Assembly: GCF_000143885.2 (NCBI RefSeq)
Contig: NC_018581.1
Span: 3,720,001-3,784,000, forward strand
Direction of reading: 5' to 3'
Length of the DNA: 64,000 nucleotides
Origin: Gordonia sp. KTR9
GTDB lineage: Bacteria > Actinomycetota > Actinomycetes > Mycobacteriales > Mycobacteriaceae
Shown here: piece after piece, positions 8,008-47,850 of the stretch
Position numbering within the stretch: the first letter of the stretch is position 1
How the letters are laid out: each line of letters begins with the position of its first letter
Notes under the pieces: model-generated
The model's database searches: none
The model's input: only the letters and a program-made list of their open reading frames with translations
Told to the model about the DNA's origin: nothing
Program-made: the position numbers and the translations under genes

Positions 8008-8088
8008 GCTCACTCAGGTACGAGGAGCGCGAGCGTCGCCCCCGGCTCCCTGAGCTGCGAGGAGCGCGAGCGTCGCCCCCTGCTCCCT
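8008..8088 (+). repeat. REP-like 37-bp tandem units, left of IS110 copy 1
   Basis: Two 37-bp units (8008-8044 and 8045-8081) share the frame GCTCxCTxAGxTxCGAGGAG followed by CGCGAGCGTCGCCCCC. A third unit starts at 8082 (GCTCCCT) and is cut by the IS at 8088. The array lies directly after the enoyl-CoA hydratase stop. The same GCTCCCT...GAGGxGCGAG motif flanks the second IS copy, so this is a dispersed intergenic repeat family that the element uses as target. Confidence 0.75.
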
Positions 8089-8130
8089 TCAGTGTCAGGG
8101 TTGTGGAGCCACGTGAGTGGTGATTGGGTT

Positions 8131-8290
8131 TCGTCCACCAGGTGTTTGGCTCTCTTGCTCCCTGCCACCCCTGCTGGGTTGGTGTTGCCTCATCGTGCCG
8201 ACATCTGGTGTGACGGACCGGCCGGCGTGACTTGATAGGAGCGTGGCAGCGCCCCTCCACTGAAGTATGTCCACCGACCGGCCCGACTGT
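8131..8290 (+). ncRNA. candidate IS110 bridge RNA, copy 1
   Basis: Folding the leader by hand gives two internal-loop hairpins. In the first, stem 8138-8150/8197-8208 (one bulge) encloses a loop with TTGCTCCCT at 8155-8163 on one side and GCCTCAT at 8187-8193 on the other, with an inner stem between. TGCTCCCT is identical to the left target flank, and GCCTCAT is the complement of ATGAGGC at the right flank. In the second, stem 8220-8231/8270-8283 encloses ATAGGAGC at 8235-8242, identical to the element's right end, and CACTGAAG at 8258-8265, the complement of CT plus the left end TCAGTG. The order target loop then donor loop is that of the IS621 bridge RNA. The transcript ends are guesses. 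Confidence 0.72.
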
Positions 8291-8321
8291 CCGCCCACCC
8301 TGTGACAGGAAGGCAAGCTCC

Positions 8322-9371
8322 ATGATCGTCATCGGTGCTGATGTTCACAAGCGCTCCCACACCTTTGTCGCCGTCGATGACGTCGGCCGCAAACTCGGAT
8401 CCACGGTCGTACCCACAACGACCGCCGGTCATCACACAGCACTGCGCTGGGCCAACGAGACGTTCGGTCACGAACTGCTCTGGGCCATCGAGGACTGTCG
8501 CAACATGTCCGCCCGCCTCGAACGCGACCTACTCGGCGCAAAGCAGAAGGTCGTGCGGGTCACCCCGCGGTTGATGGCCGAACACCGCCGTACCGGGCGT
8601 GAACGTGGTAAGTCCGATCCCATCGACGCGTTGGCTGTGGCGCGGGCCGCCGCCCGTGAACCTGATCTGCCGGTGGCCTCCCACGATGAGGTGTCGTATG
8701 AGGCCAAGGCGTTGGTGGACTATCGGGAAACCCTTGTGCGGGAACGCACGTCGAAGATCAACCGGGTGTTGTGGCGGGTGCATCAACTCGACCCCGAATA
8801 CCACATTCCTCGGGGCGGGTTGACGCTGAACAAACACCAGAACAACCTCGCGGCGTGGCTGGTCGACCGCCCCGGGATCGATGCCCGACTGGCCCGCCAC
8901 GAGGTCGCCGCGATCATCGCGTTGACCGCTGAGATCAAACAGGTCACCCGCGAGATCACCACCCTGGCGCGCGACGCCGTGCCGACGTTGATGGCGATGC
9001 CCGGTTGCGCGGAACTGACCGCGGCGAAACTACTCGGCGAATCCGCCGGCATCACTCGCTTCGGTACCGAGGCGCAGTTCGCCCGGAACGCCGGTGTCGC
9101 ACCCGTGCCGGTGTGGTCAGCCAACCCCGGCCGCCACCGCCTGACCCGCTCAGGGAACAGACAGCTCAACGCCGCCCTGCACCGGATCGCTTTGACTCAA
9201 GCCCGCATGCCCGAGTCCCTCGGCCACACCTACTACCAACGCAAACGCGACGAAGGCAAAACCAAACGCGAAGCCATGCGCTGCCTCAAACGACGTCTGG
9301 CCCGCGTCGTCTACAACAACCTCACCCTCGACCACCACAACCGCACAACCCCACAACAAGACGCCGCTTGA
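8322..9371 (+). CDS. IS110-family transposase (bridge-RNA-type recombinase)
   Basis: A 349-residue recombinase with an N-terminal RuvC-like DEDD domain and a C-terminal Transposase_20 domain. Candidate DEDD residues are D7 (GADVHK), E57 (WAIEDC), D99 and D102 (SDPIDA); the spacing E to D of 42 and 45 matches that reported for IS621. The C-terminal region contains FARNAGVAPVPVWSANPG, where S266 is the likely nucleophilic serine, and RSGNRQLN. The start at 8322 follows AGGAAGG; an upstream ATG at 8232 lies within the bridge-RNA region and is not used. The protein is identical to that of the second copy at 46441-47490. Confidence 0.95.
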   Translation: MIVIGADVHKRSHTFVAVDDVGRKLGSTVVPTTTAGHHTALRWANETFGHELLWAIEDCRNMSARLERDLLGAKQKVVRVTPRLMAEHRRTGRERGKSDPIDALAVARAAAREPDLPVASHDEVSYEAKALVDYRETLVRERTSKINRVLWRVHQLDPEYHIPRGGLTLNKHQNNLAAWLVDRPGIDARLARHEVAAIIALTAEIKQVTREITTLARDAVPTLMAMPGCAELTAAKLLGESAGITRFGTEAQFARNAGVAPVPVWSANPGRHRLTRSGNRQLNAALHRIALTQARMPESLGHTYYQRKRDEGKTKREAMRCLKRRLARVVYNNLTLDHHNRTTPQQDAA

Positions 9372-9381
9372 CATAGGAGCT

Positions 9382-9419
9382 ATGAGGCGCGAGGAGCGAT
9401 AGCGACGAGCCTCGAAGGG
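9382..9419 (+). repeat. REP-like unit, right flank of IS110 copy 1
   Basis: ATGAGGCGCGAGGAGCGATAGCGACGAGCC and a few more bases, the right part of a split repeat unit. The same sequence with two or three changes lies beside the right end of copy 2 (complement of about 46393-46430). It ends directly at the ung stop codon. Confidence 0.7.
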
Positions 9420-18134: not shown

Positions 18135-18761
18135 TCAGCGACGGGTGGTCTTCTTGGCTGCGGTCTTCTTTGCAGGAGCCTTCTTGGCCGGAGCCTTCTT
18201 CGCGGCCGTGGCCTTCTTTGCCGGCGCGGCCTTCTTGGCCGGAGCCTTCTTCGCGGCCGTCGTGGTCTTCTTGGCCGCCGTGGTCTTGGCCGGAGCCTTC
18301 TTGGCCGCGGTAGTCTTCTTGGCCGCCGTGGTCTTGGCCGGAGCCTTCTTGGCCGCGGTGGTCTTCTTGGCCGCGGTGGTCGCCTTCTTGGCGGCGGTCT
18401 TCTTCGCCGGCGCAGCCTTCTTGGCTGCCGTGGTGGTGGTTCCGCTGCCGCGCTTCACAGCCGGACCGGTGGCGGACAGCTTCTGCTTGCCGGCCACAAC
18501 GGCTTTGAACTGAGCTCCCGGACGGAATGCCGGAACAGATGTTGCGCGGACCTTCACGGTCTCGCCGGTCCGCGGGTTGCGGGCGACGCGCGGTGCGCGC
18601 TTCCGCTTTTCGAATACGCCGAAGCCGGTGATCGTCACGCTCTCGCCCTTGTTGACTGCGCGCACGATCGTGTCGACGACGAGCTCGACCGCTTCTGTCG
18701 CAGTCTTGCGATCCGCGTCGAGCTTCTTGGTCAGCTCATCAATGAGCTCCGCCTTGTTCAT
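18135..18761 (-). CDS. hupB: HU-family nucleoid protein HupB with long lysine/alanine tail
   Basis: HupB compacts the nucleoid. Residues 1-90 are the HU domain ([58 protein letters not shown]). Residues about 110-208 form a low-complexity tail of PAKKA, AAKKT and TAAKK repeats like the histone-H1-like tail of mycobacterial HupB, which binds DNA non-specifically and is acetylated and methylated. The DNA of the tail is a set of imperfect repeats, so length variation between strains is expected. A strong ribosome binding site (GGAGGT) precedes the ATG. Confidence 0.96.
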
Positions 18762-46196: not shown

Positions 46197-46236
46197 GCTC
46201 TGCTCTCAGTTACCGCGGACCCGCACACCCTCTGTC

Positions 46237-46430
46237 CCCGAGGTGCGAGGAGCTATAGCGGCCCCAACCGCTCCCTGAGGTGCGAGCGAAGCGCCCCATT
46301 GCTCCCTGAGGTGCGAGCGAAGCGGCCACCTTCTGCTCCCTGAGGTGCGAGCGAAGCGAGCCGCGAAGGGCTCCGAAACCTGCGTCACCAAGCCCTTCGT
46401 GGCTCGTCGCTATCGCTCCTCGCACCTCAT
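46237..46430 (+). repeat. REP-like repeat array at the right end of IS110 copy 2
   Basis: Three direct units GCTCCCTGAGGTGCGAGCG+AAGCG start at 46270, 46301 and 46335; a partial one (GAGGTGCGAGGAGCTATAGCG) lies near 46238. The last unit (46341-46372) and an inverted unit (46391-46429) can fold into a long imperfect hairpin. The inverted unit abuts the element: on the minus strand it reads ATGAGGTGCGAGGAGCGATAGCGACGAGCC, almost the same as the right flank of copy 1. Confidence 0.78.
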
Positions 46431-46440
46431 AGCTCCTATG

Positions 46441-47490
46441 TCAAGCGGCGTCTTGTTGTGGGGTTGTGCGGTTGTGGTGGTCGAGGGTGAGGTTGTTGTA
46501 GACGACGCGGGCCAGACGTCGTTTGAGGCAGCGCATGGCTTCGCGTTTGGTTTTGCCTTCGTCGCGTTTGCGTTGGTAGTAGGTGTGGCCGAGGGACTCG
46601 GGCATGCGGGCTTGAGTCAAAGCGATCCGGTGCAGGGCGGCGTTGAGCTGTCTGTTCCCTGAGCGGGTCAGGCGGTGGCGGCCGGGGTTGGCTGACCACA
46701 CCGGCACGGGTGCGACACCGGCGTTCCGGGCGAACTGCGCCTCGGTACCGAAGCGAGTGATGCCGGCGGATTCGCCGAGTAGTTTCGCCGCGGTCAGTTC
46801 CGCGCAACCGGGCATCGCCATCAACGTCGGCACGGCGTCGCGCGCCAGGGTGGTGATCTCGCGGGTGACCTGTTTGATCTCAGCGGTCAACGCGATGATC
46901 GCGGCGACCTCGTGGCGGGCCAGTCGGGCATCGATCCCGGGGCGGTCGACCAGCCACGCCGCGAGGTTGTTCTGGTGTTTGTTCAGCGTCAACCCGCCCC
47001 GAGGAATGTGGTATTCGGGGTCGAGTTGATGCACCCGCCACAACACCCGGTTGATCTTCGACGTGCGTTCCCGCACAAGGGTTTCCCGATAGTCCACCAA
47101 CGCCTTGGCCTCATACGACACCTCATCGTGGGAGGCCACCGGCAGATCAGGTTCACGGGCGGCGGCCCGCGCCACAGCCAACGCGTCGATGGGATCGGAC
47201 TTACCACGTTCACGCCCGGTACGGCGGTGTTCGGCCATCAACCGCGGGGTGACCCGCACGACCTTCTGCTTTGCGCCGAGTAGGTCGCGTTCGAGGCGGG
47301 CGGACATGTTGCGACAGTCCTCGATGGCCCAGAGCAGTTCGTGACCGAACGTCTCGTTGGCCCAGCGCAGTGCTGTGTGATGACCGGCGGTCGTTGTGGG
47401 TACGACCGTGGATCCGAGTTTGCGGCCGACGTCATCGACGGCGACAAAGGTGTGGGAGCGCTTGTGAACATCAGCACCGATGACGATCAT
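46441..47490 (-). CDS. IS110-family transposase, copy 2
   Basis: Identical in sequence to the 349-residue protein at 8322-9371, with the same DEDD candidates (D7, E57, D99, D102) and candidate Ser 266. The start at 47490 has the same AGGAAGG. Nothing in the sequence suggests inactivation, so both copies may be mobile or may exchange by homologous recombination. Confidence 0.95.
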   Translation of the reverse strand: MIVIGADVHKRSHTFVAVDDVGRKLGSTVVPTTTAGHHTALRWANETFGHELLWAIEDCRNMSARLERDLLGAKQKVVRVTPRLMAEHRRTGRERGKSDPIDALAVARAAAREPDLPVASHDEVSYEAKALVDYRETLVRERTSKINRVLWRVHQLDPEYHIPRGGLTLNKHQNNLAAWLVDRPGIDARLARHEVAAIIALTAEIKQVTREITTLARDAVPTLMAMPGCAELTAAKLLGESAGITRFGTEAQFARNAGVAPVPVWSANPGRHRLTRSGNRQLNAALHRIALTQARMPESLGHTYYQRKRDEGKTKREAMRCLKRRLARVVYNNLTLDHHNRTTPQQDAA

Positions 47491-47521
47491 GGAGCTTGCC
47501 TTCCTGTCACAGGGTGGGCGG

Positions 47522-47681
47522 ACAGTCGGGCCGGTCGGTGGACATACTTCAGTGGAGGGGCGCTGCCACGCTCCTATCAAGTCACGCCGGCCGGTCCGTC
47601 ACACCAGATGTCGGCACGATGAGGCAACACCAACCCAGCAGGGGTGGCAGGGAGCAAGAGAGCCAAACACCTGGTGGACGA
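47522..47681 (-). ncRNA. candidate IS110 bridge RNA, copy 2
   Basis: Same leader as in copy 1. Guide segments on the minus strand: left target guide at 47649-47657, right target guide 47619-47625, left donor guide 47570-47577, right donor guide 47547-47554. The left target guide TTGCTCCCT matches all nine bases of the left flank of this copy (complement of 47724-47732). Confidence 0.7.
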
Positions 47682-47723
47682 AACCCAATCACCACTCACG
47701 TGGCTCCACAACCCTGACACTGA

Positions 47724-47850
47724 AGGGAGCAAAGGACCTGCAGCTCACTCGAATCAGGGAGCAAAGGACCTGCAGCTCACTCGAATCAGGGAGCAATGGA
47801 CTTATTGCCCATTCGGATCAGGGAGCGGGGCGAAGCTCGCTCCTCAGGGA
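47724..47850. repeat. 32-bp tandem repeat array at the left end of IS110 copy 2
   Basis: Three contiguous 32-bp units, each starting AGGGAGC: 47724-47755, 47756-47787 (identical to the first) and 47788-47819 (diverged after AGGGAGCAA). A shorter fourth starts at 47820 (AGGGAGCGGGG) and another at about 47846. On the minus strand every unit ends in GCTCCCT, the left target of the IS. The array stops about 20 bp before the gatB stop. Confidence 0.8.

Follow-up and report, generated by a model that had tools for sequence, protein, structure and literature searches.

Among the described systems closest to the element studied here is IS621 of E. coli. According to PMC11208160, IS621 encodes a bridge RNA in its left end, ahead of the recombinase gene, with left and right target guides (LTG, RTG) followed by left and right donor guides (LDG, RDG) on two internal loops; a -35 half in the right end and a -10 half in the left end are joined in the circle, and the element inserts into genomic repeats (REP). 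The same paper describes a strong preference for a CT core in both target and donor; in that work, Durrant et al. defined cores as repeated sequence near the ends, required concordant cores on extension and kept CT-core guides for motif analysis (PMC11208160). The handshake bases of the IS621 guides face the other DNA: position 7 covaries on both sides, and matching the opposite DNA aids exchange (PMC11208158). In the seekRNA elements of the IS1111 and IS110 types, RNAs of 70-100 nt match both target strands; the IS1111 RNA is usually located downstream of the gene, whereas IS110-type elements have most of their non-coding region upstream and a guide order reversed relative to IS1111 (PMC11187229). 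The REP-targeting ISPpu9 and ISPa11 use extragenic repeats as insertion sites (PMC1525189), and IS900 is an IS110-family element inserting without target duplication at the motif CATGNNNNNNTCTCCTT (PMC8141618).

The window, i.e., the whole stretch of 64,000 nucleotides of Gordonia sp. KTR9 DNA that was analysed, harbors two copies of an element sharing with IS621 the recombinase family, the location of the RNA, the guide order, the (here predicted) promoter halves joined in the circle, the insertion into repeats and handshake bases facing the other DNA. It differs from IS621 in that its target and donor cores are unlike dinucleotides, the RTG-side complement of the donor end includes the core, and, among its sisters, the LTG finds its best match at 0-3 nt from the cut. 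A short RNA matching both target strands and a mainly upstream non-coding region with the IS110-type guide order are also shared with the seekRNA elements, which differ in RNA length and, for IS1111, in RNA position. ISPpu9 and ISPa11, having other hosts and repeats, are set beside it by description, as is IS900, which bears on the start-codon sisters described below. The reading that we favor, with a probability of about 0.92, is that of a bridge-RNA element whose left end (8089-8321) would encode a target and a donor loop, and which would insert between CT and GAGG with unequal cores. In the literature read, which did not extend to subscription papers and preprints, neither IS110 elements with unequal cores nor the targeting of leaderless promoters was met; since cores were defined as repeated or concordant, elements with unequal cores could have been missed by Durrant et al. 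Bridge recombinases are under development as programmable tools for DNA rearrangement, and a natural clade with unequal cores, multi-copy elements and empty sites makes it possible to test directly what pairings recombination needs.

Element anatomy and leader RNA

The features of the element are the following (a slash marks a junction).

8089..9383, + strand: whole IS110-group element, copy 1, TCAGTG...GGAGCTAT, 1295 bp; ends set by comparison of identical copies and of empty sites
46429..47723, - strand: copy 2, identical to copy 1, with the putative bridge RNA at 47528-47676 (-)
8322..9371, + strand: IS110 recombinase, 349 aa; PF01548, PF02371, NF033542; PDB relatives ISCro4 and IS621
9368..9373, + strand: TTGACA, -35 half of a promoter that the sequence predicts at the circle junction
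8096..8101, + strand: CAGGGT, predicted -10 half, 17 nt from TTGACA over the joined ends
8078..8088, + strand: left target CCCTGCTCC and target core CT (8087-8088), from the repeat GCTCCCT/GAGG in empty sites
9384..9392, + strand: right target GAGGCGCGA, from the same empty sites
9376..9383, + strand: left donor end GGAGCTAT with donor core AT (9382-9383), from ATGAGGYGCGAGGAGCG counts and empty alleles
8136..8284, + strand: putative bridge RNA core with both loops; 143.3 bits with model R1, among whose 17 sequences it is itself
8136..8150, + strand: target-loop stem, 5' arm, pairing with 8197-8210; 98.7% of cells paired, double changes in 6/14 pairs
8197..8210, + strand: target-loop stem, 3' arm, from covariation
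8215..8231, + strand: donor-loop stem, 5' arm, pairing with 8269-8283, from covariation
8269..8283, + strand: donor-loop stem, 3' arm, from covariation
8153..8163, + strand: LTG TCTTGCTCCCT; 8/10 scored bases match the left flank in each of three copies; covaries over 29 elements
8187..8192, + strand: RTG GCCTC, followed by the A that serves core position 9, complement of T/GAGGC; covaries over 24 elements
8193..8195, + strand: TCG, handshake bases facing the end of the element itself; pairs form with A8 and C6 and none with T7
8235..8242, + strand: LDG ATAGGAGC, with the same letters as 9373-9380 in the right end; sisters were picked by this motif
8258..8265, + strand: RDG CACTGA plus AG, complement of 8087-8094, AG complementing the target core CT

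Across 1295 bp, copy 1 (8089-9383, +) and copy 2 (46429-47723, -) show no difference. A third copy (G000:C2:2762546-2763846) is located elsewhere in the genome; it is 98% identical, falls short of the others by 1 nt and has a transposase match ending at residue 316, which suggests a frameshift.

Among the matches of the 349-aa recombinase are PF01548, PF02371 and NF033542 ("IS110 family RNA-guided transposase"), as well as solved ISCro4 (PDB 9t56, compared by protein alone; E 2.9e-9) and solved IS621 (E about 3e-9). D7, E57, D99, D102 and S266, placed by motif, are likely the catalytic residues, giving a DEDD recombinase with the conserved serine of the IS110 group. The left end holds 233 non-coding nt, the right end lies 12 nt past the stop codon, and empty alleles and the repeat family reveal insertion without target duplication. 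An RNA in the right end, as in the IS1111 group with its subterminal inverted repeats of 7-17 bp, is ruled out because only 12 nt follow the stop codon, too short for one. On its sequence, the element is thus of the IS110 group, with a recombinase resembling those guided by bridge RNAs; it is a variant, not a copy, of IS621. The nearest named relative is an element of Gordonia amicalis (L097), with a recombinase 88% identical; transposase fragments in G202 are 96% identical. The genome contigs contain 29 loci related to the recombinase, mainly distant or fragmentary.

Joining the ends in a circle would rebuild a TTGACA-N17-NANNNT promoter, as in IS621: NANNNT stands 17 nt from TTGACA in 24/25 elements, and in 0-3 elements at spacings of 12-16 and 18-23 nt. 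The single miss is G282a, whose contig ends within the right end.

The leader RNA was analysed by aligning 17 leaders, among them this one, over 165 columns. The consensus consists of a target-loop stem with an apical hairpin on it and a donor-loop stem with an inner hairpin, i.e., two covarying stem-loops holding internal target and donor loops, as in IS621. In this structure, 98.4% of cells are paired (94.3% in shuffled alignments), 13 pairs show double changes (4.2 shuffled) and 26 cells carry them (5.5 shuffled), each value being reached in 0/500 shuffles; slid versions of the structure leave just 30-49% of cells paired. Model R1, built from this alignment, finds in the window the two element copies and nothing else; it matches 44 of 401 family genomes at E 1e-4 or better, in some cases with distant hits. 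At the Rfam gathering cut-off, the window yields two tRNAs and no family in the leader. The fold energy is ordinary for both the whole leader (z -1.10; 26/200 shuffles equally good) and 8136-8284 (z -1.20; 28/200). The case for a bridge RNA leans on covariation.

The matches of the four guides to the element's flanks and ends were compared with 2000 shuffles of 8129-8321 in which dinucleotides were kept. Taken alone, the left-flank match is reached in 272 shuffles, the right-junction match in 159, the right-end match in 36 and the left-end match in 43, and all four together in 0/2000; single matches are therefore weak and the set of four is not. If the AT of the element is removed from the right target, that match is only 5 nt long and is reached in 1711/2000 shuffles.

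The earlier note on this DNA had read the leader as an IS621-like bridge RNA with four guides, and most of this reading holds. The matches lie where it had placed them (TTGCTCCCT at 8155-8163, GCCTCAT at 8187-8193, ATAGGAGC at 8235-8242 and CACTGAAG at 8258-8265), the consensus returns its two closing stems as 8136-8150/8197-8210 and 8215-8231/8269-8283 (by a mapping of alignment columns onto bases), and the guide order LTG-RTG-LDG-RDG is that given for IS621 in PMC11208160. The folding that it had suggested as a check came out no better than shuffles; of the covariance models, those of Rfam gave no hit at cut-off in the leader, and R1, built on an alignment that includes this leader, matches it. 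On the whole, the leader is very probably a bridge RNA.

Insertion site and unequal cores

The target belongs to an extragenic repeat family, GCTCCCTGAGGTGCGAG, seen in the window at 46200-46360 and 47724-47850 and often arranged in tandem at about 30-44 nt. The pattern GCTCCCT N(0-3) GAGGYGCGAG is matched 124 times across the genome, against 0 for its reversed control, and no spacer separates GCTCCCT from GAGG among the 100 matches listed of the 124. In the wider form GCTCCCT N(0-3) GAGGNGCGAG, the repeat is present in 20/59 Gordonia genomes, with 154 matches in this one. It is thus abundant in its own genome and spread through Gordonia. Elsewhere in the window, 18145-18439 contains degenerate direct repeats with spacings mainly of 15 and 18 nt.

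The right junction was located through empty sites. The orthologous locus, traced by the right-hand gene and compared in three (L188, L189, L190) of 11 loci from other genomes, reads GCTCCCT/GAGGTGCGAG in L188 (G348) and L189 (G202) and GGTACT/GAGGTGCGAG in L190 (G364); AT ahead of GAGG is absent in all three. These loci are to be regarded as empty alleles and not as base-for-base ancestors, since their number of repeat units differs from that of this genome. ATGAGGYGCGAGGAGCG is found three times in the genome, each time as an element end. On the basis of the repeat matches, these counts and the orthologous empty loci, the element ends with ...GGAGCTAT and the target is TGCTCC-CT/GAGG. The AT at the right junction belongs to the element; the target has CT as its core and the donor AT, a difference at position 8. 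The CT core that the earlier note had placed at both junctions therefore stands on the left; on the right, the junction is shifted by two bases, and neither a right CT core nor the flank ATGAGGC agrees with the empty sites of this genome and of L188 and L189. A search of this genome for an empty TGCTCCNNATGAGG site with one mismatch allowed gave 13 matches (47 in the reversed control), none exact.

An identical CT core in target and donor, as in IS621, is missing also in G224, where AC stands against AT. Its element copies read AC/TCAGTG and CAAT/GCACG, and all 11 matches to the empty-site pattern read ...ACAC/GCACGCTCGCGGA, with AC joined straight to GCACG (reversed control, 0); the geometry of this lineage is the same as that of the present element. 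The cores of G291 look alike (AC or CC against AT), with 8/11 pattern rows of the expected form, representing seven distinct places; this support is weak because the reversed control (10) nearly equals the pattern count (11).

By analogy with IS621, we infer the following cycle. Excision would join ...GGAGCTAT to TCAGTG..., with a predicted circle junction ...ATAGGAGCTAT/TCAGTG.... The circle would rebuild the TTGACA-N17-CAGGGT promoter, from which bridge RNA and recombinase mRNA might be transcribed. In the presumed complex of RNA and protein, LTG and RTG would set the complex on the repeat and LDG and RDG on the circle junction, so that the recombinase could place the circle between CT and GAGG. 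The end bases of the RTG side partially complement the element end and those of the RDG the target core, and they could therefore pair only after the top strands have been exchanged; handshake pairing would accordingly follow this step, if the order of exchange is that of IS621 and the element is presently active.

Guides, targets and product-like pairing

The covariation between guides and targets was evaluated on 29 element types, including this one, in a table of 63 rows, four of which represent right ends only; an offset freedom of 0-3 nt was granted equally to true and shuffled partners. Only elements whose leader contains TTGAT[AG]GGAGCGTG and whose right end carries TTGACATAGGAG were taken, and the constancy of these two motifs is therefore no result. 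Rows L030, L079 and L082, without the LDG motif, were omitted, as were the left flanks of L050 (left end duplicated) and L061 (TCAGT duplicated) and distant R1 matches whose ends follow other motifs (G166, G222, G123, G238, G326, G214, G139 and others).

The LTG matches its own left flank at 8.47/10 nt over the 29 elements (shuffled 4.44, sd 0.26; 0/5000). In the 24 elements whose right side could be read, the RTG matches the first five right-flank bases at 4.38/5 (shuffled 2.33; 0/5000), and 4.82 of seven bases (null 2.67; 0/5000); in this element, it pairs with the right target at 4-5 of the seven. The RTG register is fixed, and the distance from the cut to the best LTG match varies by 0-3 nt. 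As examples, the LTG TCTTGCTCCCT of this element faces the flank TTGCTCCCT in two copies and CTGCTCCCT in one, the G202 LTG TCCTGCTCCCT is accompanied by CCTGCTCCCT in 4/4 left flanks, and the G. amicalis LTG AATCGCTCCCT by CATCGCTCCCT; the lowest row is G282b, matching its flank at just 4/10. The target guides thus match the insertion site and shift with it, as in IS621 and as the earlier note had expected of sister copies. Because sister guides change along with their targets, the same note's proposal of a bridge RNA programmed for a repeat of its own genome is supported, together with the covarying structure and the 124 pattern matches. The donor guides match the element's own ends, which are nearly invariant in a set of sisters selected by LDG and right-end motifs. 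The 29 types illustrate natural reprogramming among close relatives and provide a ready list of actinobacterial guide-target pairs.

The RTG side continues in a fixed register and complements the last four bases of the element (donor positions 6-9), partially so in this element, where position 7 is unpaired (CGAT predicted, CTAT present). Over the 24 elements, the agreement with the donor end is 0.875 at position 6 (null 0.459, 0/2000 as high), 0.875 at position 7 (null 0.626, 0/2000), 1.0 at position 8 (invariant, and so without a test) and 0.833 at position 9 (null 0.515, 2/2000). Against the target, the values at positions 6, 7, 8 and 9 are 0.25, 0.125, 0.333 and 0.642, with 828, 1491, 2000 and 82 of 2000 shuffles as high. 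The 47 copies with both junctions were counted at positions whose donor and target bases are unlike; there, the RTG side agrees with donor/target/neither in 35/4/0 copies at position 6, 37/0/6 at position 7, 29/0/0 at position 8 and 22/7/0 at position 9. The corresponding RDG counts are 25/5/9, 31/0/12, 0/18/11 and 10/19/0; RDG agreement with the target exceeds shuffles at position 8 (0/2000) and position 9 (29/2000), and at positions 6 and 7 the RDG covaries with neither donor nor target in these copies. In the 18 copies where position 8 is common to donor and target, the RDG fits neither. The pattern, in which guides are written for the recombination products, is clear for the target loop; in the donor loop, it concerns the core bases only and fails at positions 6-7.

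The rival readings of the leader and of the junction fare unequally. That the leader might be an ordinary 5' untranslated region or attenuator, with guide matches arising by coincidence in a repeat-rich genome, draws on the frequency of the target and on how often shuffles reach the left-flank match alone, but it is extremely improbable, given that the four matches never occur jointly in shuffles and that covariation extends over 29 elements with many distinct targets. The exact IS621 geometry, with one CT core common to both junctions and ATGAGGC as right target, would need an empty allele GCTCCCTATGAGG or a circle junction ...ATAGGAGCT/TCAGTG without AT. The guides do suit it, since ATAGGAGC equals the left donor plus the C of CT, CACTGAAG fits CT-TCAGTG and GCCTCAT fits ATGAGGC, so that in that register the donor guides fit CT without mismatch; nevertheless, CT/GAGG without AT in the 100 listed of the 124 matches and in L188 and L189, the confinement of ATGAGGYGCGAGGAGCG to three element ends and the direct joining of AC to GCACG in the G224 empty sites (11/11; reversed control 0) make it very improbable. 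A former bridge RNA now decaying, with copies no longer mobile, would account for the mismatch at position 7 and for the shorter third copy with its transposase match ending at residue 316; it appears unlikely in view of two copies at separate sites, identical over 1295 bp, with the 349-aa frame intact.

The meaning of the pairing beyond the target is less settled. It is possible, though the balance tips slightly the other way, that the bridge RNA is written for products joining two different core dinucleotides, so that post-exchange pairs, and not a shared core, would decide the sealing of the junction; the 3' strand of the target loop would then complement element-end positions 6-9 plus the right target, and the end of the 3' strand of the donor loop would complement the target core plus the left element end. 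This interpretation is weakened by what the RDG counts show at positions 6-7 and by the control for G291. Alternatively, the complementarity of the RTG to its own end might be a clade marker, inherited side by side and without a role, with the RTG ending at core position 9. On a recombinase tree of 19 elements (others being left out where the frame was unfound by motif or the fetched piece was short), the right-end classes at positions 6-7 require seven changes, the minimum (shuffled mean 9.8; 0/200 as low); since these classes cluster on the tree, the element shuffles overstate independence. The match is also broken at position 7 here and at positions 6 and 9 in G029b, and the RDG side is without such a pattern at positions 6-7. 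We nonetheless consider the marker explanation doubtful: matched changes are found across lineages (ATAC with ATAC in G160, CTA with CTA in G279 and G386, CAAC with CAAC in G092), their number being unsure because the tree leaves its deep forks unsettled and places G160 on a long branch; at positions 6 to 9, the RTG side goes with the donor in 35/39, 37/43, 29/29 and 22/29 of the copies in which donor and target are unlike; and such pairing matters in IS621 experiments (PMC11208158).

Start-codon sisters and altered left ends

Twelve sisters end in GGAG-A[AT]AC, and in all 22 copies ATG or GTG follows right behind two bases past the junction (0/29 in other classes).

L016, L020, L023, L026, L027, L050-L053, L057, L058, L061, L062, L065-L068, L158-L161, L165: GGAG-A[AT]AC right junctions

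In 19/22 of these junctions, the frame is at least 60 codons long or still open where the fetched DNA ends, and in the other three it stops after 7, 10 and 11 codons. The LTG has the form N-TANNNT in 9/12 of these elements versus 0/12 of other classes. Their guides look programmed for a -10 box with a leaderless gene's start codon behind it; a Shine-Dalgarno-like GGAG, supplied by the element end, would then lie six bases from that codon. A precedent for start-codon targeting is reportedly IS900 (Doran, 1997, cited in PMC8141618).

Two copies have unusual left ends. In L050 (G197), a 78-nt tandem duplication reaches the LTG region, as if the element had struck its own guide sequence, or as if recombination had duplicated it; in L061, one G267 copy, the left end is duplicated and altered, reading TCAGTCGTCAGTATC.
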